Shown piece after piece: positions 30,010-62,330 of a stretch of 64,000 nucleotides of DNA. Position 1 is the stretch's first letter; the number at the start of each line of letters is the position of its first letter. Below the pieces are notes generated by a model. The model was not told the origin of the DNA. It did no database searches and saw only the letters and a list, made by a program, of their open reading frames with translations. The DNA comes from Rhodococcus coprophilus NBRC 100603. GTDB taxonomy: Bacteria; Actinomycetota; Actinomycetes; Mycobacteriales; Mycobacteriaceae. The stretch lies in the NCBI RefSeq assembly GCF_001895045.1, contig NZ_BDAM01000005.1:248001-312000 (forward strand). Direction: 5' to 3'. The position numbers were made by a program, and so were the translations under genes.

Positions 30010-32106
30010 GTGTCGCTGTGGTCACGTGCTTTGTCGGTCGAGGAACTCGAGGACCGGCCGTGGAGTGAGCTGATGCCCTGGCTCGACCGTTACGGGTCCG
30101 CTCGCACCGTCGCGTTGTCCGCGCTCGCTCCCACCACCCGGTGGTGGGAGGTCCAGTCGCCCGCCGAAACCGCGAAAGAGGCGGGCATCCCCGAGATGTG
30201 CGCCGAACTCGCGCGGATCTTCGTCACCGACCATCCGGATCTCCGGTTCGCGGATGCGTTGCTCCGCGATGTGAGAATGCCGGTGTCCGCGCTCGACCTG
30301 GATGCTGCGGCCGCGACGGTGATCGCGCGTCTTCCGCACGCCCCCAGCACTGCCGAGTTGTTCAGCCGCAGCCCCGCCGACCTGTTCGTGGTGCGCGGTG
30401 CCGACCGCGACACGGTCGACGAAATCGTCTGTGCGGTCCTGGTCGCGACGGTACTGCGCGATCCCGACCCTTCCCTTCCCGGCAGCGAGCCGGCAGAGGC
30501 GTCCACCTCGGTCACGGAGGTCCCGGCGCTCGACCTGCTCGTCGAAGACCTTGCACACCTGGCGCGCTGGCGGATGCTCAGCGGCGAACCCGACCGGCCC
30601 TTGCTGCGTGTCGACCTCGACGAAGGAGCGCCCGAGGAGATCCGCACGGTGGCAGCGCGTATCCGTGCGCTCACCGCGGGTGATCTTCCGGTTCCCGCGC
30701 CGGACGACCCCATTTCCGAACTCGGCGAATACATCCAGGCGTTGCCCGAACCGGAGCGACAGGCACTGCGACGACGTGTCCGCGACGGCGAGGACGACCC
30801 GGCCGCTCCGTCGACGTTCCCGTTCGGCACGGCGGTCGGTGACCTGCTCGCCGCGCTGCGCGTGCGGGTGCGACCGGTGGCCGCGTTCGACCGCATCCTG
30901 CGCGACTTTCCCGTGCTCACCCGGCCCGTGCCGGCGCTGGGCGCGCCGCTGTGGCAGGTGCTGCACCGCCTCGACGACCGTTTCGAGGTGGCCGACGGCT
31001 GGGTGGCCGTTCCGGATCTGCCCGATGCGGAGAAGCAGACCCGGGCGCTGCTCGCAGAGTTCGAATCCGCCAACGGGGTGGTCGAACCCGCCGCTGTGCA
31101 AGCCACCTGGACGTTGCCGGCCGACGAGTTCGCCGCGTGGACGCAGTACTGCGGGACGTCGATGTTCGAGGGCCGGCTCCTCGGACAGCAGGACGACCTC
31201 GCCGGACGCGCCGCCCAGGTACTCGAGGTGCTGGGAGATCCGCACACCGCGGACGAACTCGTCGCCCGCATGGGCGTGAACGCCGACGTCCACACGCTCG
31301 TCGCCGAACTCACCGACGACGAGCGTTTCGTGGTCGAGAAGGGCCGCTGGTCACTCGCGGAATGGGAGACCGACGTGGTCACCGCGATCCGCAACCGCAT
31401 CGCCCGTCTGGTCGACGATCGGGACGGCAGCGCGCCGGTCGATGTCGTCGTGACCGGGCTGGTGGAGCGGTTCGGCATTTCCGAAGATTCTGCCCGGACC
31501 TTCGCGGCCGGAGGAGAATTCGAGGTCACCGACGATCGTGTGGGGCGCCGGCGGCGTGCGCACGTGCCCACGTCGAAGCCGGAACGGACCCGCCGGCTCT
31601 ACCGGCTCGACGACGGCTGGCGTCTGCGCATACCGGTCACGCGCGACCACGTGCGCGGCGCCGAGTGCGCGGTGCCGTCGGCGGTGGCCGCGCTCGCCGG
31701 GTGCGATCCGGGCAGTGAGATCGTCCTGCCGTCGCGCTTGGGCGGACAGACCTTGCGCTGGTCCGGACCGGCCCCGCAACTCGGGTCGATCCGCCGGTTC
31801 CTCGAGGACATCGGGGTGGATGCGGGTGGAGAACTCTTCCTCGATTTCCGCGCGGACGGCCGGTTCGACGTGTTGCCGCTGCGCACGGTGGCCGACAACG
31901 CGGAACCGTTGCGCAAGGCGCTTGCCCTTGTCGGACACACCACGCCCGAAGTGGTCCCCGAGGACCGAATGGCCGAGGCGTTCGCGACCGCCCTGGACCT
32001 GGGTGCAGAAACCCGGCCTCGTCGAATTCTGTCCGCCTACCGGGCCCGCCGTGAGACCGATGTGGTTGCCCTCCTCGAAGATGCCTGGGTGCGTGTGCCG
32101 AGCTGA
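30010..32106 (+). CDS. Unrecognised modular protein with HhH-like and winged-helix-like regions
   Basis: 698 residues, no signal peptide or membrane segment. Residues about 110-150 (PSTAELFSRSPADLFVVRGA, then DRDTVDEIVCAVL) resemble the helix-hairpin-helix module of the RNA polymerase alpha C-terminal domain. About 300-530 contain repeated short helix-helix-strand units, two of them (PHTADELVARMGVNADVHTL and the one near EFEVTDDRV) reading like winged-helix modules. The end (about 540-650) has a beta-rich domain with RIPVTRDHVRGAECAVPSAV. GTG start has AGGAG 9 bases upstream. The pieces suggest DNA binding, but I do not recognise the family and infer no function. Confidence 0.55.
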   Translation: MSLWSRALSVEELEDRPWSELMPWLDRYGSARTVALSALAPTTRWWEVQSPAETAKEAGIPEMCAELARIFVTDHPDLRFADALLRDVRMPVSALDLDAAAATVIARLPHAPSTAELFSRSPADLFVVRGADRDTVDEIVCAVLVATVLRDPDPSLPGSEPAEASTSVTEVPALDLLVEDLAHLARWRMLSGEPDRPLLRVDLDEGAPEEIRTVAARIRALTAGDLPVPAPDDPISELGEYIQALPEPERQALRRRVRDGEDDPAAPSTFPFGTAVGDLLAALRVRVRPVAAFDRILRDFPVLTRPVPALGAPLWQVLHRLDDRFEVADGWVAVPDLPDAEKQTRALLAEFESANGVVEPAAVQATWTLPADEFAAWTQYCGTSMFEGRLLGQQDDLAGRAAQVLEVLGDPHTADELVARMGVNADVHTLVAELTDDERFVVEKGRWSLAEWETDVVTAIRNRIARLVDDRDGSAPVDVVVTGLVERFGISEDSARTFAAGGEFEVTDDRVGRRRRAHVPTSKPERTRRLYRLDDGWRLRIPVTRDHVRGAECAVPSAVAALAGCDPGSEIVLPSRLGGQTLRWSGPAPQLGSIRRFLEDIGVDAGGELFLDFRADGRFDVLPLRTVADNAEPLRKALALVGHTTPEVVPEDRMAEAFATALDLGAETRPRRILSAYRARRETDVVALLEDAWVRVPS

Positions 32107-53200: not shown

Positions 53201-55746
53201 ACTTCGTTGAGCTCGTGCGAGACTCCGGATTCCATGTCGTCGCGCTCGACCCAGCGGTCGAGCAACGCGGTGACTACCGGTACGTGCGTCTCGATGCGTT
53301 CGAGGGCGAGGAACAACCGGTACACCGCGTCCTCGAGATCGTGGTTGCGCTCGAGATCTGTGACGTCGTAGTGGTGCAGTGCGCGCGAGAGACGAGCACG
53401 GAAGCTGTCGGGCAGCCCGCCGACCTCGACGTCGAGCGACTGCAGATACCCGTGGAAGAACTCACGCGGACTGTGCACGCGGTCTTCGGTGTGGCGTTCC
53501 TCGTCCGTCGGACGGTTGCGCGAGAGTTCGCACACGTCGGCGAACGTGGTCAGCAGCGCCAGTTCGGCGCGGACGAGATCGCACGACTCCACTCCGCCGG
53601 AGAGACGCTCGTACTCCGCGAGCAGCGTCGCGGTGCGCTTGGCCGACACGTCGTACCCGGTGATCAGTGCTCCGAGCGAATCGAGTCGTGCGAGAGCGTC
53701 TGCGGCGAGGTTGTCGCTGAGAGCCGTTACCGGCGTGGGGAATTGGACGCGCTCGACGGACTCGGTGACAACTTCTTCGACGATCTGGTCGACGCGCAAC
53801 AGCGGGGCGCCTGCGTCCACCTGCGCGTTGACGACGCCGAGGATCTCGCGGACCCTGCCGGCGAACGGCGCGCGGACAGCCGTCTCCATCTTCATCGACT
53901 CGAGAACCACCAGGGTCTGCCCCGCTTCCACCTCGTCACCGACGGCGACGGGCACCGCGACGACGACGGCGGGCGCCGGGGTACGGACGACACCGGCCTC
54001 GTCCTGGCTGATCTGGTGGCTGATCCCGTCGACCTCGACGAGGAAATGCGCCGGCCCGGCGATCGAGACGACGTGGTGGCGGCGACCGTCGAGCGTGAGT
54101 CGCGACTCGTAGTCACCCAGACGCTCGATTTCGACGTCGAACTCGGAGACTCCGGTGTCGAGGCGGTAGCGGTGAGGACCGACCTGCCCGACGACGAGTT
54201 CGTATGCCTGTCCCTGATAACTCAATTCGATCTTGCGGCCGACGGCGTGCCCGGCGCGCGGGCGGCCGCCCCGCGCCGAGGCGAGGAACGCGGTGCGTTC
54301 GCGCGCCTCGTCCGCGTCGTACACGTCGACGGCGGTGGCGACCAGCGCGATGTCGGCGACCTTCGTCGGTCCGGTCTCGCTGCCGGCGCCGGTCCGGTCG
54401 AGCCAACCGGTGTCGGCGGATGCGTCGACGACCTCCGGCCGGTCGAGCAGGTCGAGCAGGAACGACTTGGTGGTGGTGCCTCCGTCGAGGACGACCGTGG
54501 TTTCACGCAGCGCGGTGCGCAGCCTGGCGAGCGCTTCGGCGCGGTTCCGTCCCCACGCGATGACCTTGGCGACCATCGAGTCGTAGTCGGGGGGAATCAC
54601 GTCTCCCTGGGCGATGCCCGTGTCCACCCGCAGCCCCGAACCGAGGGGGAACTTGAGCAACTGCACCGTGCCGGGAGCCGGGGCGAAGCCGTTGGCGGCG
54701 TCCTCGGCGTTGAGCCGGGCTTCGACGGCGTGGCCGAATTCCGGGGGGCACTCTCCGGTCAGGGCTTCACCCGAGGCCACCATGATCTGCAACTTGACGA
54801 GGTCGATACCGGTGGTGATCTCGGTGATCGGATGCTCGACCTGCAGGCGGGTGTTGACCTCGAGGAACGTGAAGGTCTTCAGGTGGGGCTGGTAGAGGTA
54901 CTCGACGGTGCCGGCACCGCAGTAGCCGGCAGCCCGCACGAGGTCGGCGGAGACCTTGCGGAGATGGTCGGATTGTTCCGCGGTGAGCAGCGGGGATGCC
55001 GATTCTTCGATGACCTTTTGGTTTTTGCGCTGGATGGAGCAGTCGCGCACGCCCGGAGCCCACACATTGCCGTGTGCGTCGGCGATGACCTGCACCTCGA
55101 CGTGGCGCGCGTCGGTGACGAGGCGTTCGATGAACACGACGGGGTCGCCGAAGGATCGCTCTGCTTCACCCTGCGTGCGCTCGAGCGCCAGTTCGAGTTC
55201 GTCTTCGGCGTAGACCTTGCGGATGCCGCGGCCACCGCCGCCGGATCGCGCCTTGATGATGAGGGGGTAGCCGATTGCCTGCGCGTGACGCCGGGCGTCG
55301 GCTCGGGAGTCCACGGGCCCACCGGACCACGGGGCGACGGGCACGCCGACCTTTTCGGCGAGAAGCTTGGCTTCGACCTTGTCGCCGAGCAGGCGCATCG
55401 CATCTGCGGACGGCCCGATGAAGGTGATGTTCAGCCGGGCACACAGGTCCGCGAAGGCGGGATCTTCTGCTACGAATCCCCAGCCGACCCAGACTGCGTC
55501 GGCCTTCGCTTCGAGGAGTGCCCGCTCGAGTTCGGCGTGGTCGAGATAGGACGTCGCGGCCGTGGTCGAGGGGTGGAGCGTGACCCCCTCGTCGGCCTGA
55601 CGGACGAACATGGCGCGGCGTTCGGCGTCCGTGTGGAGAGCAATCGTCCTGATGCCGTAGTCGTGTTCGGAGTTGAGCTCCCGGACTGCCCGGATGAGGC
55701 GGACCGCCGCCTCACCCCGGTTGACCACTGCGATCCGCTTGAACAT
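50269..55746 (-). CDS. Single-chain biotin-dependent acyl-CoA carboxylase (BC-BCCP-central-CT)
   Basis: About 1825 residues. Biotin carboxylase (1-450): MFKRIAVVNRGEAAVRLIRA, ATP-grasp loop KARSGGGGRGIRKV, HVEVQVIAD, and the catalytic FLEVNTRLQVEHPITE. A biotinyl domain has ESMKMETAVRAPF, with Lys619 as biotin site. A region of about 590 residues (680-1270) has no motif I know. The carboxyltransferase (about 1275-1825) has PYELIPLLTG, RVALFGDPTKALGTVAEAE, ALSSGATISMDSG, DNFGIGGYDRVMGPNGQAQYW, RPLVVLANLSGFDGS and PIVFVVVSRYHGGAFVVF. The order and the central region resemble eukaryotic acetyl-CoA carboxylase more than the split bacterial AccA/AccD enzymes. It should carboxylate an acyl-CoA; which one is unknown. 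ATG at 55746 is preferred over 55782. Confidence 0.88.
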   Translation of the reverse strand: MFKRIAVVNRGEAAVRLIRAVRELNSEHDYGIRTIALHTDAERRAMFVRQADEGVTLHPSTTAATSYLDHAELERALLEAKADAVWVGWGFVAEDPAFADLCARLNITFIGPSADAMRLLGDKVEAKLLAEKVGVPVAPWSGGPVDSRADARRHAQAIGYPLIIKARSGGGGRGIRKVYAEDELELALERTQGEAERSFGDPVVFIERLVTDARHVEVQVIADAHGNVWAPGVRDCSIQRKNQKVIEESASPLLTAEQSDHLRKVSADLVRAAGYCGAGTVEYLYQPHLKTFTFLEVNTRLQVEHPITEITTGIDLVKLQIMVASGEALTGECPPEFGHAVEARLNAEDAANGFAPAPGTVQLLKFPLGSGLRVDTGIAQGDVIPPDYDSMVAKVIAWGRNRAEALARLRTALRETTVVLDGGTTTKSFLLDLLDRPEVVDASADTGWLDRTGAGSETGPTKVADIALVATAVDVYDADEARERTAFLASARGGRPRAGHAVGRKIELSYQGQAYELVVGQVGPHRYRLDTGVSEFDVEIERLGDYESRLTLDGRRHHVVSIAGPAHFLVEVDGISHQISQDEAGVVRTPAPAVVVAVPVAVGDEVEAGQTLVVLESMKMETAVRAPFAGRVREILGVVNAQVDAGAPLLRVDQIVEEVVTESVERVQFPTPVTALSDNLAADALARLDSLGALITGYDVSAKRTATLLAEYERLSGGVESCDLVRAELALLTTFADVCELSRNRPTDEERHTEDRVHSPREFFHGYLQSLDVEVGGLPDSFRARLSRALHHYDVTDLERNHDLEDAVYRLFLALERIETHVPVVTALLDRWVERDDMESGVSHELNEVLDRLIVATQVRFPVIGDIARNLRYRYFEEPVIRKAREQVYDGVRGSLAYLAEHPQAADYTQRIDALVATPEPLVDLLAQQISRPGTVPGPLLEVITRRAYKIRTLEDVRSCVVDGRQIVTGNFDLRDTRLYLISAETSYADLESLLDTIEESASDLPDIQNLVIDLYVAWEDAPADADAQASVLSAALSVRETISRARRVTVTVCHTDIAEEHVFTFRAYESGYAEEGNIRDIHPLTGQRLDLWRLKNFDGTRLPSNPDTYLYHIAAKDNPSDERFIALTEVRDLTQQRDESGKIVSLPAFERALASSLDGMRRAQAARGGRRLETNRVVLYVWPVVDLDVSDLRRIARSAAPLTVGAGLEEITVIGWLRENQDQLPREVALRFSYRSGAGVVVRVTEPPKEPLKPLDEYTQKVQRSRARGTVYPYELIPLLTGSDGTFTEYDFDEQGQFAAVDRPYGRNTAGLIVGIVDTPTPRYPEGMTRVALFGDPTKALGTVAEAECSRLVAAIDLAERLGAPVEWFALSSGATISMDSGTENMDWVSRGLRRIITFTQNGGEINIVVAGINVGAQPYWNAEATMLMHTKGILVMTPDSAMVLTGKQSLDYSGGVSAEDNFGIGGYDRVMGPNGQAQYWAPNLRVAVETLFAHYAHAYVAPGERFPRAAESLDPIDRDVRVYPHVHPSSDFTTVGEIFSSETNPDRKKPFDIRTVMRSVVDQDHSVLERWADMADADTSVVFDAHLGGTPVSVIGIESRAIPRKGWFPTDGPDQWTSGTLFPKSSKKTARAINAASGNRPLVVLANLSGFDGSPESLRNLQLEYGAEIGRAIVNFDGPIVFVVVSRYHGGAFVVFSGALNENMEVLAVEGSFASVLGGAPAAAVVFTRDVNKRTAGDARIVELESRFAAAEDGEKSRLGVELAALRVAVRSEKLGEVAAEFEAIHNIQRAQRVGSVHRIVPAAELRPQIIAAVQRGMARSLA

Positions 55747-56516
55747 ACTCGTTGCCACCGTTCTCCATGGTTGTGCGCGCAAGTGACGCGCGTCGGAAGC
55801 TCCACCCCGACGAGGAATACAATTTATCCGGTCCTCGGTCCCTGCTCACGAATCCGTAAACGCGAGCGGGAACATCTCTCGGTGACTCCTCGTACATCGT
55901 GGTGGTCATGCGTGTGTCGGTCGCCGACGCCACGAGTTCTTTCGACCCGATTCGTCGAACGCGGTGCGAGCGCGCCTCGGTCCTCATCCGGTGGTCGTCG
56001 CCGTCGACGACACACACCCCCGTGCGGATGGAAACGCCCCGTACGGCTTACAGCATGGCCGAAACATGAGGCTTTGTCACGTTTGACTCCCGGTATCGGT
56101 GTGACCTGCGAAAACGCTTCGGAGGGCGCGGCAGGAGACCTCCTTTGCAGCGGTTTTCGTGCGTGGTCGGAGAGGAATCGGTTCGGGGGAGGCGCGATTG
56201 CCCACCCGTACCGCGCGGTAACACCGGCGGGTAACTTGGAGAGCGGGCCCGAGCTTGCTTTGTACTGTCAGGTAAAGCGTTGTGGTGCAACGAGATCTGC
56301 TCCGTGGAGGTCGGCGTCGGGACGAAGGGGCCGGCCCGGGCTTCGGATCTGTGACATCGATCACCAATTGGGAATATGGCGCGCGCTCAAGGGAAATGCC
56401 CGTCACCGAAGCGCTACCGGGCGTCGGCGGATACAGATATCGTGGCGCTCCGGGCCGATCGCCGTCTGCCGTTTTCTGGAACAGTGGAAGGCAGCAAGGC
56501 TTACGAGGAGGCGCAG
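55747..56516. other. 770-base non-coding stretch between divergent genes
   Basis: No convincing gene: the short frames here have no family pattern. It contains a long-armed inverted repeat, CGAAAACGCT near 56109 with AGCGGTTTTCG near 56144 (one base bulge), enclosing AGGAG-AC-CTCCT; this could form an RNA structure. A CRP/GlxR-like palindrome lies at 56350-56365. The length is unusual for this gene-dense window, and promoters for both flanking genes must be here. Confidence 0.5.
56350..56365. promoter_or_regulatory. CRP/GlxR-like binding site
   Basis: TGTGA-CATCGA-TCACC matches the TGTGA-N6-TCACA consensus of cAMP-receptor-type regulators (GlxR in corynebacteria and relatives) in nine of ten conserved positions. 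It is 152 bases before the all-helical gene and 604 bases from the carboxylase start. Control of either or both genes by the CRP homologue is inferred. Confidence 0.5.
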
Positions 56517-57716
56517 ATGCCCGGATCCGACCGACCCGATGTACCCGGCGAGTTCGAGACACCCGACCGGCGCCGGGAGCGCATCGCGGTACAGGTGCGC
56601 CGGTGGTGCGACCGGTGCGTCATCGACGGCAGACACAGCCCGCTCTCCGACGCGGCGGCACTGGCGCTCGCCGCCGGCCATCTCGACGAGACGGCGCGAA
56701 CGGTGCTTGCCGACCGGCGTCGTGCGGGGCGGCGTCTACCCACCCTCGACGGCTTCGGGGCGTTACGCCAGTTGTGCGACGAGCACACACAGGTGATTGC
56801 CCGCATGAGTGGGCAGCGACCGGGAGCTGCGCGGCTCGTTCTCGAGTTCCGTGCAAACGAACTCGGTAAGAAACTGCGCGCCGCAGAACACGCCTTCGTG
56901 CATTCACCGTCGCACTACGCGCAGGGTGTGCGCGCGGTACGCCGGGACCGTCGCGACGGTCTCCACTTCGAACTCGATCAGCGCGAAGCCTTGTTCGCGG
57001 CACTTCTACGGACTCCGGCGCCTCTACCGGTCGCGCCCACCGAGCAGGCGCGCGGGGCTGCTCTGTCCATTGCGGTGGACCGGGTAGCGCGATGGTCGGA
57101 ACGCACGCCGGTCGCCGACGCCGGCCGTCGCGCAGCGGACATGATCGCGCGCCGGATGCCGGAGGACGACGACCGGTTCGTCGACCGGTACGACACCCTT
57201 CTGTTCCTCGCCGGCTCGCTCTACGACAGGATCGAGTCGTCGGCCGCGTGGCGCTCCGAGTACTTCGCGGTGCAGCGTGCCCAACTCGATCTCGCCGAGG
57301 AGATCACGCAGATAGCCGTCGATACCGTGGCGCTGCGCGGGCTGCTCGCGGAACTGCGTGCCGCGCTCGGCAGCGTCTCCGGCGAGGGCGGTGCGTCCGC
57401 ACGCGCTGCGCTGGAACAGCGGGTCGCGTCCCTCGGTCCTGTGTGGGACCAGCTTCTCGCGCGCGTGGCAGCACTTGCCAGGATCGGCGACCTGCTCGGA
57501 AACGCGGAAAGCCGGATGAACATGGTCGACGTCGCGCGCCGGACCGCGAGTCTCGACGACCGCATCGACGATCTCATCGGCCGGTCGGGCGCGCGTGAAC
57601 TCTCGGCCGAGAACACGGACTTCGTGGGCGACCAGTTCGGGTCGGCCGCGGAACTCATGGGCTCGCTGCACACCGCGCTCGGGAGCGACATCGCCGAACT
57701 CACCCGCAAGGACTGA
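56517..57716 (+). CDS. All-helical protein of unknown function, first gene of the ParA-containing cluster
   Basis: About 399 residues; ATG at 56517 has GAGGAGG 6 bases upstream. Two cysteines near the N-terminus (WCDRCVID) could bind a metal or be a remnant of a zinc motif. The rest is predicted almost wholly helical with long amphipathic stretches (for example AEEITQIAVDTVALRGLLAELRAAL, given here only in part as LAEEITQIAVDTVALRGLL). No membrane segment or enzymatic motif. The lipoprotein and ParA genes follow on the same strand. Its all-helical make-up would suit a scaffold or partner protein. I do not recognise the family. Confidence 0.65.
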   Translation: MPGSDRPDVPGEFETPDRRRERIAVQVRRWCDRCVIDGRHSPLSDAAALALAAGHLDETARTVLADRRRAGRRLPTLDGFGALRQLCDEHTQVIARMSGQRPGAARLVLEFRANELGKKLRAAEHAFVHSPSHYAQGVRAVRRDRRDGLHFELDQREALFAALLRTPAPLPVAPTEQARGAALSIAVDRVARWSERTPVADAGRRAADMIARRMPEDDDRFVDRYDTLLFLAGSLYDRIESSAAWRSEYFAVQRAQLDLAEEITQIAVDTVALRGLLAELRAALGSVSGEGGASARAALEQRVASLGPVWDQLLARVAALARIGDLLGNAESRMNMVDVARRTASLDDRIDDLIGRSGARELSAENTDFVGDQFGSAAELMGSLHTALGSDIAELTRKD

Positions 57717-57859
57717 CCGTGTCCGTTGTGTCCGATCACAGCTTTTGGAGGCAGGGCAGGGGCGCGCCACCCAGTCCTTGAAATGTGAGAGGGCTCACTG
57801 GTGCAAATGTCCGATTCGGTGGTAGCTTCCTCGCGTTCATCTGGGGTCGGACGACGGGG

Positions 57860-58330
57860 GTGGCGTGGGTGGTTGTACGGCGGGTGTCGGTGGGGATAAT
57901 GGTCGGGATCGTGGTGGCGTTCGCCGCCGGATGCGGAGGGAACACCACCGTGTCGGTGGTGGACGATCCAACGCTGGAATCGGCTTTCGGGGCCGTGCTC
58001 GCCGAAGGGCAGGAGCGCACTCTCGGTGATCTCGTGCAGGCGGCAGACCTGCAGGTCGAGGACTGGGACCGCATGTACTACTTCCGCGTGCCTCTGCTGA
58101 TGAGCGAGGTCAACCGCATACTCGGCACATCGGGTGTCGTGTGGCAGGGCCTACCTACCGTCGGTGCGGAAGGAATGATGGTGTTCATGTCCGAGGGCCG
58201 CGTGGTACACGCCGTCGTCGACCGGTCGCCGGCGCTCGCTCTCAGCGGGTTCGCAACCGCCGACTCGGTGGTCCGTCCGGACACCTCGGGTGGGTTGGAA
58301 AAGGTCGGCGTAGAGGCCAAGGGCAGATAA
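57860..58330 (+). CDS. Small lipoprotein of unknown function
   Basis: About 156 residues from a GTG at 57860 (57869 and an upstream GTG at 57785 are alternatives). VRRVSVGIMVGIVVAFAAGC is a signal peptide ending in a lipobox-like AAGC. The mature part starts GGNTTVSVVDDPTLESAFG and contains a hydrophobic-rich domain with RMYYFRVPLLMSEVNRILG. It would be anchored outside the membrane. It lies between the all-helical gene (143 bases) and the ParA gene (79 bases) on the same strand. I do not recognise the family. Confidence 0.6.
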   Translation: MAWVVVRRVSVGIMVGIVVAFAAGCGGNTTVSVVDDPTLESAFGAVLAEGQERTLGDLVQAADLQVEDWDRMYYFRVPLLMSEVNRILGTSGVVWQGLPTVGAEGMMVFMSEGRVVHAVVDRSPALALSGFATADSVVRPDTSGGLEKVGVEAKGR

Positions 58331-58409
58331 GACCGGGCATCACGTTTGTCCGGATCCGGTGTACGTTTCTTCGGGAAGAGAATGTCGAATCCTTCCGAAG
58401 AGGTGCACG

Positions 58410-59267
58410 GTGGCGCGGGTAATCGCGACGATCAACCTGAAAGGTGGCGTCGGCAAGACCACGACGACTGCTGCGTTGGGCGAGTTCATGGCGGCGGAGT
58501 TCGGGCAGCGAGTCCTGCTCGTCGACCTCGACCCGCAGACGAACCTCACCACGATGATGATCGGTGAGGAACGCTGGAAAGAACTGAACGAACTCGATCG
58601 CACCCTGGCGGCGTTGTTCCGGGGTGCGATCGAATCCGATACAGCCTCGTTCGACATCGAGAAGGCGCTTCAGTACGACGTCTCACCGGTCCGGTCCGTG
58701 CGCGGGGTCGATCTCCTAGCCTCGTCCCTCGATCTCATCGAGATCCAGGAGGGCCTCAGTCATCGGCAGTACGCGGATCCTGGGTCGCACCGGCCCATCG
58801 AGATCCTCACATCGGCGATCGAACCGATCGCCGACCGATACGACTACATACTCCTCGACTGCCCGCCCAACCTGGGCATGCTCACCCTCAACGGGTTGAG
58901 GTCGGCCGACGGTTATCTGATCCCGACGATTCCGGACATCCTGTCCACGTACGGAATCCCGCAGTTGCAGAAGCGAATCCAGGAGTTCGCGAACCGCACA
59001 GATCATCCCCTCCGGGAGATCGGTCTCGTCATCACGAAGTATCGCAGCGCCTCCAACCTGCACCGCAGCATCATCGAACAGTTGCAGCGCGACGACCGGA
59101 TCGCCGATGTCGTCCCCGCCTGGGTTCCTGAAGCGAACCAGATCGCGGCGTCCGCGGAGTTCGTGCCGTACGGCACACTCAAGCGCAAGTACGGCAACAC
59201 CGGCCAGTTCGACGCGCTGCGCATCCTCACCGAGACGATCCTGATGAACGCGCAGGTGTACCTGTGA
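58410..59267 (+). CDS. ParA-family ATPase without ParB
   Basis: About 285 residues from a GTG with GAGG 7 bases upstream. The deviant Walker A is LKGGVGKTTTTAALGEF (about 10-26), the A' box is VLLVDLDPQTNLTTMM, and Walker B is DYILLDCPPNLGMLTLNG. ParA/MinD ATPases position DNA or protein cargo by ATP-driven dimerisation on the nucleoid or membrane. No parB gene or parS-like site is seen; instead the stop overlaps the start of the next gene (GTGA), so that small protein is the likely partner. A chromosomal or plasmid partition role is possible but not supported by neighbours. Confidence 0.88.
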   Translation: MARVIATINLKGGVGKTTTTAALGEFMAAEFGQRVLLVDLDPQTNLTTMMIGEERWKELNELDRTLAALFRGAIESDTASFDIEKALQYDVSPVRSVRGVDLLASSLDLIEIQEGLSHRQYADPGSHRPIEILTSAIEPIADRYDYILLDCPPNLGMLTLNGLRSADGYLIPTIPDILSTYGIPQLQKRIQEFANRTDHPLREIGLVITKYRSASNLHRSIIEQLQRDDRIADVVPAWVPEANQIAASAEFVPYGTLKRKYGNTGQFDALRILTETILMNAQVYL

Positions 59268-59830
59268 CGAAACCCGGTACCGGCGAGGCGCGCCTCCGCA
59301 TGCAGATCGGCGAAGCGACCGCTGCGCTGCTCCGACTCGACGACGCCGCGCCGGGCGCTGCGGGAACGCTCGTCGCACTCGTCCGCGTCGTCGCCGACGA
59401 AGCCGCCCGAACTCCGCGCTTCGCGAGGGCACTGTCCGCCGTGCTCGCTCCGGACGCGGGACCCGCACCGGCGGGGGCAAGCGCGTCGAGCCCCCAGGGC
59501 GCGGCCCGGGCCGCAGCATCACAGAAAGGACCGTCGTCACAGACAGAAGCTGTGTCATCGAGCGCATCGCTCCCGGGGAAGGCGCCCGCCAGGCGGAGCA
59601 GGCGAGCACCCGCTCCGTTCGACCCGTTCGTGCTCTATCGCGACGGGGGTGAAGCAGGGCTTCGAGACGAGCTCGGCACGCTCGACGTCGAGGCGCTCAA
59701 GGACATCATCGCCGAGCACGCGATGGACTACGACAAGCTCGCGATGCGGTGGCGTACTCCCTCGAAGTTGCGCGATCGCGTCGTCGAACGGGTAAAAGCC
59801 CTGACGACCAAGGGGGATGCATTTCGGTGA
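59264..59830 (+). CDS. Putative partner of the ParA ATPase, SAP-like C-terminal domain
   Basis: 188 residues, translationally coupled to ParA (GTGA overlap). The N-terminal 60 residues are helical, followed by an Ala/Ser/Pro-rich linker (about 66-115). The last 70 residues start FDPFVLYRDGGEAGLRDELG and contain LKDIIAEHAMDYDKLAMRW and a final KALTTKGDAFR. This C-terminal piece reads like a SAP-type helix-extended loop-helix domain, a fold often used for nucleic-acid binding, seen by me in other ParA-linked or nuclease-linked proteins. The function is unknown; cargo adaptor for ParA is an inference. Confidence 0.6.
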   Translation: MTKPGTGEARLRMQIGEATAALLRLDDAAPGAAGTLVALVRVVADEAARTPRFARALSAVLAPDAGPAPAGASASSPQGAARAAASQKGPSSQTEAVSSSASLPGKAPARRSRRAPAPFDPFVLYRDGGEAGLRDELGTLDVEALKDIIAEHAMDYDKLAMRWRTPSKLRDRVVERVKALTTKGDAFR

Positions 59831-59956
59831 TGCTTCACAGAAACTGTCGTTACCAGGCTGAGACCCGTAGGGTGGCCATCAGACCCCCCGAGTTGTGCCG
59901 CGACACCGTCTCACCACTTCGCGTCGGTTTTCGTGCACGAGAGAAGGACAGCAGGC

Positions 59957-60718
59957 ATGGGTGATATCGCAGGTCAGGGCATTGCCGCTTTTGTGACGGA
60001 CGTCCAACAAAGAGGCGGACGCGCGGAGCCGCTCGACGACCACCGAACCGTCAAAGTCTGCGGTACGGACGGCGTCGAACGTGTGGTCCGGGTCCGCACC
60101 ACCGCGGGCGGACCATGGCTCGCCCGCCGGCAGGACGGCATCGCCGGCAGCGACGAGACCGGATCCTCGCACTGGGTGTTCGTCGACCTCGGGCAGACCC
60201 CGCCCGCGTTCTACGTGGTCGAATCCGCCGAGATCGAGGCAGGCATCGAGGAAGAGGTCGCGCTGTGGCTCAGCGAGCGACCCGGCCGGACCGCTACCGG
60301 AAGCCACCCCATTCCGCTCAGCGGCGTCGCGCACGGTCTCGACCGCTGGGACCTCCTGGGCCTCGACGCCGTCAAGGACACCACTCGCACCTGCACTCCC
60401 ACACGGCGCAGCACGCGACGGGCGGCAGCTCCTGCCGTGCGTCCGGCAGCGCAGCCGGAAGAAGTCGACCCGCGCGTCGCAGTGTGTGCCGATGTCGGCG
60501 GATACCGAGTGCAAGGCCGCTTCGACCCGGCGACCGGCGCGCTCGAGATCACCCGTGGACCGATGGAGCGCCGGCGTTTCCCCGATCCCACCACGGCGGC
60601 CGACGCTGTCGCGGGATTCCTCAGCGGTGACATCGAATCGCACGACGGCGACACTTTCTGGCGGCTCGACGGACCGAACGCTCTCGCCCTCGGCGAATAC
60701 CTCGCCCGCAGCAGCTGA
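59957..60718 (+). CDS. Unknown protein with nuclease-superfamily-like N-terminal domain
   Basis: About 253 residues; ATG at 59957 has AAGGA about 9 bases upstream. Residues 1-125 have the pattern of a domain seen in restriction-like or HJR-like proteins, from memory: VKVCGTDGVERVVRVRTT, a segment WVFVDLGQTPPAFYVVESAE, and GLDRWDLLGLD. Possible PD-(D/E)XK residues are incomplete (the usual lysine in VKTR is an Arg). The second half (about 165-253) is a separate small alpha/beta domain with RVQGRFDPATGALEIT. It follows the ParA partner gene by 126 bases on the same strand. A catalytic role is not shown. Confidence 0.5.
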   Translation: MGDIAGQGIAAFVTDVQQRGGRAEPLDDHRTVKVCGTDGVERVVRVRTTAGGPWLARRQDGIAGSDETGSSHWVFVDLGQTPPAFYVVESAEIEAGIEEEVALWLSERPGRTATGSHPIPLSGVAHGLDRWDLLGLDAVKDTTRTCTPTRRSTRRAAAPAVRPAAQPEEVDPRVAVCADVGGYRVQGRFDPATGALEITRGPMERRRFPDPTTAADAVAGFLSGDIESHDGDTFWRLDGPNALALGEYLARSS

Positions 60719-60730
60719 CCGGTCGTGGGT

Positions 60731-60750
60731 CCGCGAGCGAGTGCTCGCGG
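60731..60750. terminator. Hairpin between convergent genes
   Basis: CCGCGAGC (60731-60738), GAGT, GCTCGCGG (60743-60750): an 8-bp perfect stem, 12 bases after the nuclease-like gene and 8 bases beyond the stop of the facing ligase gene. Confidence 0.65.
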
Positions 60751-60758
60751 CGCGCCGG

Positions 60759-62330
60759 TTACGGCGCCGCGGAATAGGTTGTACCCGTCCGGACCCACAA
60801 CGCGCCGGAGCCCGGCGTCGCGCCCTGCTGCTTCAGTTCGCGTTTGAGGATCTTGTTGGTCGCCGTGACCGGGAGATCCGCGGCGAGACGGACGTGGCGC
60901 GGCCACGCGTTCGGTGACAAATCAGCTTGTGCGGCAAGGAATTCGGAGAATTCTTCGGGGTTCAGAGTGGTATCGTCCCGAAGCACGATCGCTGCCATGA
61001 CCTGATCGCCGACGTGTTCGTCGGGTACACCGTAGACGGCGACGCGGCTCAATTGCGGTAGCCGCTGAAGGATGCGTTCGATCGGTGCCGCCGCAAGATT
61101 CTCGCCGTCCACACGCATCCAGTCGGCCGTACGGCCCGCGAGGTAGATCCAGCCGTCGGCGTCCTGGTACGCCAGATCGCCCGACCAGTACATGCCGTGT
61201 CGCATCCGTTCGTCGGTGGCCGCCCGATCGTTGTAGTAGCCGGAGAAGAAACCTCCGCCCTGCGTGTTGACGAGTTCACCGATCGCCTTGTCCGCGTTGA
61301 TCAATGCGCCGTTTTCGTCGAACTCCGCAGGTGCGCACTGCGTGAGGCTCACGGGGTCGTACACCTCGACGCCGGCGAGGCCCTTGCCGATCGAGCCCGG
61401 GGGCGTGCCCTCCTCCCGGGTGATGATGACGGCCGTCTCCGTCGACCCGAATCCGTCCCACACGGTGCACCCGAACCGTCGCGCGAACTCGTCGATGTCC
61501 CGGTCGGTCGCCTCGTTGCCGAAGGCCACCCGCAGCGGATTATCGGCGTCGCCAGGCTGTTCGGTTGTCGCGAGCAGGTATGCGAGGGGCTTGCCGACAT
61601 AGTTCATGTATGTCGCTCCGTAGCGACGGATGTCGTCGAGGAAACCCGACGCGGAGAACGTTGCCGGTGCCATCGCCGCTCCACTGCACAGCGACACGCA
61701 CCAACCGGCGAGGATCGCGTTCGAATGGAACATCGGCATCGACAGATAGGCGACGTCGTCCGGGGTGATCGAGAACCGCGACACCAGGTTGTTGCCCGCG
61801 AAGATCACCATGATCTGTGCCAGCAGAACGGGTTTGGGGTCGCCGCTCGTTCCGGAAGTGAAGATCAGCATGAAGGGATCCATCATCTCGACTTCGCGGT
61901 ACGCCTCGAGTGGTTGCGCACCCTCGACAAGCAAGCGCCAGTGCGGGCTCGCGACGTCGAGCACCGTGGCGTCGCCGAGATCGAGTCCTTCGAGCAGTGG
62001 CGCGTGTGCGGGGTCGGTCAGCACCACCTGACAATCGGCGCGCCGGATGTCGCGTGCCAACCCCTCACCACGCCGAGTGGTGTTGATCCCGACCAGGGGG
62101 AATCCGCCGAGTCCTGCGGCTGCCACCGCATGCAGCATGTCGGGTGTATTGCCGAGCAGCGTGCCGACATGCACGGGCCGGGTGCGGTCGAGAAGGGGCA
62201 GCAGTGCAGAGGCCTGGGCCGACGCTTCCGCCAGATGTTCACGCCAGGTCCAGCGTCCGGTGTCGTGGACGATTGCGGTGGTGTCGTTCTCGAGTAGTTC
62301 GCGAAGCGCCTGCTGAACGGTGTCGGCCAT
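60759..62330 (-). CDS. Acyl-CoA ligase, FadD17-like
   Basis: About 523 residues. LIFTSGTSGDPKPVLL (about 152-167) is the phosphate loop, with Pro in place of the usual final Gly; GFGSTETAVII is A5; YWSGDLAYQDADGWIYLAGRTADWMRVDGENL is A7-A8; and the lid ends TATNKILKRELKQQG with the catalytic lysine. It resembles mycobacterial FadD17, associated with steroid side-chain or lipid metabolism, as I recall. It activates a carboxylic acid to its CoA ester. ATG at 62330; the hydrolase gene lies immediately upstream on the same strand. Confidence 0.85.
   Translation of the reverse strand: MADTVQQALRELLENDTTAIVHDTGRWTWREHLAEASAQASALLPLLDRTRPVHVGTLLGNTPDMLHAVAAAGLGGFPLVGINTTRRGEGLARDIRRADCQVVLTDPAHAPLLEGLDLGDATVLDVASPHWRLLVEGAQPLEAYREVEMMDPFMLIFTSGTSGDPKPVLLAQIMVIFAGNNLVSRFSITPDDVAYLSMPMFHSNAILAGWCVSLCSGAAMAPATFSASGFLDDIRRYGATYMNYVGKPLAYLLATTEQPGDADNPLRVAFGNEATDRDIDEFARRFGCTVWDGFGSTETAVIITREEGTPPGSIGKGLAGVEVYDPVSLTQCAPAEFDENGALINADKAIGELVNTQGGGFFSGYYNDRAATDERMRHGMYWSGDLAYQDADGWIYLAGRTADWMRVDGENLAAAPIERILQRLPQLSRVAVYGVPDEHVGDQVMAAIVLRDDTTLNPEEFSEFLAAQADLSPNAWPRHVRLAADLPVTATNKILKRELKQQGATPGSGALWVRTGTTYSAAP

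Follow-up and report, generated by a model that had tools for sequence, protein, structure and literature searches.

A conserved gene pair of a ParA ATPase and a candidate partner from an undescribed family in Rhodococcus coprophilus

The 64,000-nucleotide stretch of Rhodococcus coprophilus NBRC 100603 DNA analysed here (hereafter the window) is part of contig C5 in a 4.55-Mb genome whose closest named relatives belong to Rhodococcus. It contains a gene for a ParA-type ATPase (q3, referred to as ParA) and, overlapping its end, a second gene (q4) that together most likely make up an autonomous module of ParA and a partner from a new family. The cargo and activity of this module are inferred. 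The novelty lies in the partner family and in a discrete ParA subfamily, both inside a known kind of system. The two genes form part of a run of five open reading frames (ORFs; q1 to q5), all located on the plus strand at the positions listed in a first-pass annotation of the window. That annotation had suggested that ParA and the overlapping gene act as a functional pair in place of ParA/ParB, a proposal that is now supported by their linkage across many genera.

Conservation of the ParA-q4 pair

In the window, ParA (58410..59267, 285 amino acids) is directly followed by q4 (59264..59830, 188 amino acids), with the ParA stop codon and the q4 start codon sharing the four bases GTGA (59264..59267), as noted earlier. 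When named genomes were scanned with an alignment of q4, 72 loci encoding it were recovered. A ParA ORF lies immediately upstream on the same strand in 71 of them, five of these ORFs being broken or cut, and the 72nd locus begins at a contig edge. When start codons are picked nearest to position -4, one that reproduces the four-base overlap is available in 61 of the 71 loci. The association is also evident from the ParA side. Among 61 genomes not selected for q4, ParA has matches at E <= 1e-30 in 18, all with identities of 52% or more, and q4 adjoins 17 of these 18. The 44 genomes selected for q4 contain 46 ParA matches with at least 45% identity, two of which are solo extra copies, and only two others, at 34%. 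Members of the subfamily without an adjoining q4 gene were seen at loci L148, L149 and L150 (genomes G035, G366 and G371).

The q4 loci are spread over about ten phyla, comprising the Actinomycetota, Pseudomonadota, Thermodesulfobacteriota, Acidobacteriota, Gemmatimonadota, Planctomycetota, Nitrospinota, Verrucomicrobiota, Cyanobacteriota and Bacillota, and they stem from isolates rather than bins in at least the Actinomycetota, Pseudomonadota, Thermodesulfobacteriota and Bacillota. Their distribution is patchy, with the pair found in 2 of the 296 Actinomycetota and 2 of the 398 Pseudomonadota that were sampled, counts that each include the centre genome and are likely too low. Within the genus of the window, q4 is present in 16 of 18 genomes, and 14 of these 16 also encode a ParA of the subfamily. 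One genome (G003) carries a decayed pair (L153/L138), consisting of an 80-residue remnant of the q4 C-terminal region and no ParA, and in another (G005) q4 is located at a contig end. Collectively, these sequence comparisons show ParA and q4 to be a conserved pair and support its standing in place of ParA/ParB.

All five genes of the run are under purifying selection, with dN/dS values of 0.03-0.31 relative to three named relatives. The values are 0.03-0.13 for ParA and 0.17-0.31 for q4, whose C-terminal region has 0.12-0.17, compared with 0.12-0.20 for q1, 0.12-0.31 for q2 and 0.06-0.31 for q5.

A discrete ParA subfamily

ParA is the only one of the five proteins with a significant match in Pfam, NCBIfam, PADLOC or PHROGs, and its identification as a ParA ATPase in the first-pass annotation is borne out by hits to PF13614 (6.5e-40) and PF01656 (1.4e-20). 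It has the AAA_31/CbiA domain, a deviant Walker A motif with the signature lysine (KGGVGKT, 58440..58460) and the conserved aspartates. The signature lysine (K11), the Walker lysine (K16), D41 and D150 are invariant in all 67 alignable ParAs of the pair. Residue 15 of the P-loop is a glycine in 51 of these proteins and an alanine in 16, giving the variant KGGVAKT (L087, L088, L089, L091, L092, L093, L096, L099, L103, L106, L109, L110, L114, L116, L117 and L119). The same variant is found in L003, another ParA of the window's genome. In a phylogenetic tree, the ParAs of the pair form a single clade (100/100) relative to two other ParAs of this genome.

The q4 protein and its possible role

The first-pass annotation could name no family for the partners of ParA, and indeed q1, q2, q4 and q5 are all without a significant match in Pfam, NCBIfam, PADLOC and PHROGs. 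Likewise, we found no published paper title describing the q4 family or the ParA-q4 pair. An AlphaFold2 model of q4 comprises a set of N-terminal helices (residues 6-61, 59279..59446), which in alignments include the motif EAARTPRFA, followed by a basic linker modelled with low confidence and, at residues 121-187 (59624..59824), a helical domain that forms the C-terminal part. A conserved basic stretch (residues 106-119, 59579..59620) has a mean net charge of +4.5 and a minimum of +2 among 62 sequences, and its residue R114 is invariant in the alignment.

The C-terminal domain of q4 had been described as SAP-like. When it is considered in isolation, SAP/DEK is its best structural neighbour, with a weak likeness to the SAP-bearing module of DEK, so that the structural part of this description receives weak support. 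At the level of sequence profiles, by contrast, SAP gave no match for q4 at E <= 1 or for six relatives at E <= 10, in a search whose HMMER filters drop weak matches. Five of six q4 relatives match the same region of the bacHORMA_2 profile at E values of 0.009-0.18, and the HORMA chains 6p8o, 6p8s and 6p8r match at E 0.6-1; these matches are neither significant nor independent. This sub-threshold HORMA_2 likeness was seen in the C-terminal domains of L096, L102, L104, L119 and L120, which have the pattern LKDI...G(L/M)D....A.(R/K)W in common. We regard the HORMA likeness of q4 as a lead only. A likeness to CDC37 (E 0.044) was treated as chance, and a search of a viral structure library gave a best E value of 1.4.

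In established ParA systems, as described in the available text of two studies, an ATP-dimer on the nucleoid cooperates with a partner whose positively charged, disordered segment stimulates the ATPase and provides the link to the cargo (PMC10241942; PMC12260392). A positively charged segment is also present in q4, but it is internal. Probably, q4 acts as the partner of ParA, with its basic stretch as the proposed ParA-contact motif and its C-terminal domain holding DNA or a DNA-bound complex.

Comparison with known ParA systems

The pair resembles ParABS in that a ParA-fold protein with a deviant Walker A motif is encoded directly upstream of a basic partner. However, q4 is not a ParB: searches of Pfam, NCBIfam and PHROGs gave it no ParB match, and it lacks a GERR-type motif and is modelled as all-helical. 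Inspection of 15 aligned upstream regions by eye, with no systematic repeat search, revealed no clear palindrome that could represent a parS-like site. On contig C7 of the same genome, another ParA adjoins an ORF with the motif GERRWRA, which we take to be of the ParB type. Chromosome segregation therefore has a candidate pair of its own.

A ParA with a partner devoid of a CTPase domain is also found in the ParATS system of the Streptomyces plasmid SCP2, in which a basic N-terminal peptide of ParT is required for ParA binding (PMC12260392, available text). Going by this description, q4 probably differs from ParT. The latter is a plasmid-encoded protein with a ParB-like HTH M domain, whereas the model of q4 shows a short C-terminal domain made of helices, and the gene is chromosomal in the window. 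McdAB and other ParA/MinD positioning systems likewise combine a ParA-type ATPase with a small partner containing a basic segment (PMC10241942, available text). Unlike in those systems, we recognised no named cargo protein in the annotated neighbourhood of the pair, in an examination that did not extend to microcompartment families. Overall, q4 seems to be a novel type of partner for DNA-positioning motors, a class that is itself well known.

Alternative roles of the pair

An unlikely alternative to an autonomous ParA/partner module is that the pair maintains integrative genomic islands as a partition or retention cassette, or is a plasmid relic that later became fixed in some chromosomes. In keeping with this idea, tyrosine integrase/recombinase domains are encoded within 8 kb of the pair at four loci (L096, L103, L108 and L111), an integrase arm domain was detected at L088, and q4 occurs on six IMG/VR contigs, five of which have ParA upstream. 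Two genomes of the genus lack the pair at the corresponding site, one between q2 and FadD1 (G012) and the other beside q1-q2 (G010). Moreover, actinobacterial defence islands are known to contain parA genes without parB, which have been read as traces of plasmids or mobile elements (PMC5379612, available text). These islands share with our loci the presence of ParA without ParB, but no partner gene is named in the available text of that study. Weighing against a maintenance function, plasmids seldom carry the pair (3 of 72,556, with two q4 queries) and no phage was seen to carry it (0 of 50,697, with one q4 query), although partition cassettes abound in both, and these counts disfavour plasmid or phage partition as its main role. 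In addition, it is present in 16 of the 18 genomes of the genus, the cyanobacterial loci have no recognised mobile genes nearby, and a parS-like repeat was not apparent by eye.

Still less probable is a function of ParA and q4 as an ATP-dependent transcription regulator, in which a ParA with a helix-turn-helix (HTH) binds its own promoter and q4 acts as a co-regulator. An N-terminal HTH-like segment can be recognised by motif in 34 of 71 ParA ORFs, with Pfam detecting it below the cut-off only. However, it is not seen in the other 37 (five of them broken or cut), and its presence or absence requires five changes on the ParA tree. It is also missing from the ParA of the window, whose longest possible ORF is only 17 residues longer, so that this protein lacks the fused N-terminal HTH of type Ia ParAs.

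The least probable reading is the five-gene system, linking the cell envelope to the positioning of DNA or protein, that the first-pass annotation had proposed. The strongest evidence for such a cluster is that 10 of the 18 genomes of the genus, including that of the window, have all five genes contiguous, co-directed and identically ordered (G000, G001, G002, G004, G006, G008, G011, G014, G015 and G017), but their linkage outside these ten disfavours an obligate system. They are not one such system because q1 and q2 are retained in genomes devoid of the pair and q5 is only loosely linked, as set out below.

Neighbouring genes

The first gene, q1 (56517..57716), whose product the first-pass annotation described as all-helical, behaves as an independent neighbour. 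It has matches in 30 of the 61 searched genomes and, counted by genus, in 14 of 41. The lipoprotein-like q2 (ORF range 57785..58330) probably starts later, at about 57870-57899, contains a lipobox-like FAAGC sequence and belongs with q1: it was found in 17 of 18 genomes of the genus, adjoining q1 in all 17, and in none of the searched genomes outside the genus, where the pair occurs without it. Both q1 and q2 are retained in the two pair-less genomes. G012 has a carboxylase gene, q1, q2 and FadD1 in this order, with two other genes at the place of the pair, and in G010 q1-q2 adjoin the carboxylase gene. Two other genes separate q2 from ParA in G007, G009 and G013. The q1-q2 segment (56517-58330) forms a separate, uncharacterised unit.

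The last gene, q5 (59957..60718), lies outside the conserved pair. Long matches to it exist in 15 of the 18 genomes of the genus, adjoining q4 in 11 and standing apart from it in four (G003, G007, G009 and G016). The nuclease-superfamily-like domain ascribed to it could not be confirmed, with no significant Pfam or NCBIfam match and no match among PDB sequences at E <= 1. No RNA family reached its gathering score in the region 55700-61000. The expectation that a true system would show conserved linkage is therefore borne out for ParA and q4, which stay together, and not for the run as a whole; neighbours that change freely, which were taken to indicate a chance cluster, are found in part for q1, q2 and q5 but not for ParA and q4.

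Association with defence islands

In other genomes, the pair is often found inside restriction or anti-phage islands, including an operon reminiscent of Mza, an anti-phage system reportedly described by Gao et al. in 2020. In sister lineages, MzaB- and MzaC-like genes share one operon with the pair. However, neither ParA nor q4 matches an Mza model in PADLOC, and MzaB- and MzaC-like queries gave no BLAST match in the window, to which this search was limited. The window does contain, at 30031..32106 on the plus strand, a solo homologue of fam1 (37% identity over 718 aligned positions, E 2.8e-128); in sister lineages, fam1 is the first gene of the Mza-like operon in which the pair is found. A Sigma70_r4 domain was seen in the relatives L083 and P0151 but not in the copy of the window. 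We rejected a strict dependence of the pair on Mza-like genes because G012 keeps a fam1 homologue without the pair and because, at two cyanobacterial loci, the pair is retained next to hemB or a gene of the same family. In Gordonia paraffinivorans (L074), a Cas3 gene is located about 300 bases downstream of the pair.

The pair may have an immune role. Among the papers listed in our literature search, there was no report of a ParA motor as part of bacterial immunity; if the link to defence is true, a motor of this kind would belong to it.

Many ParA/MinD ATPases are termed orphans whose partner is unknown, according to the available text of PMC10241942. For one ParA subfamily, our findings supply a candidate partner in about ten phyla, a proposal that can be tested directly with two-gene constructs.
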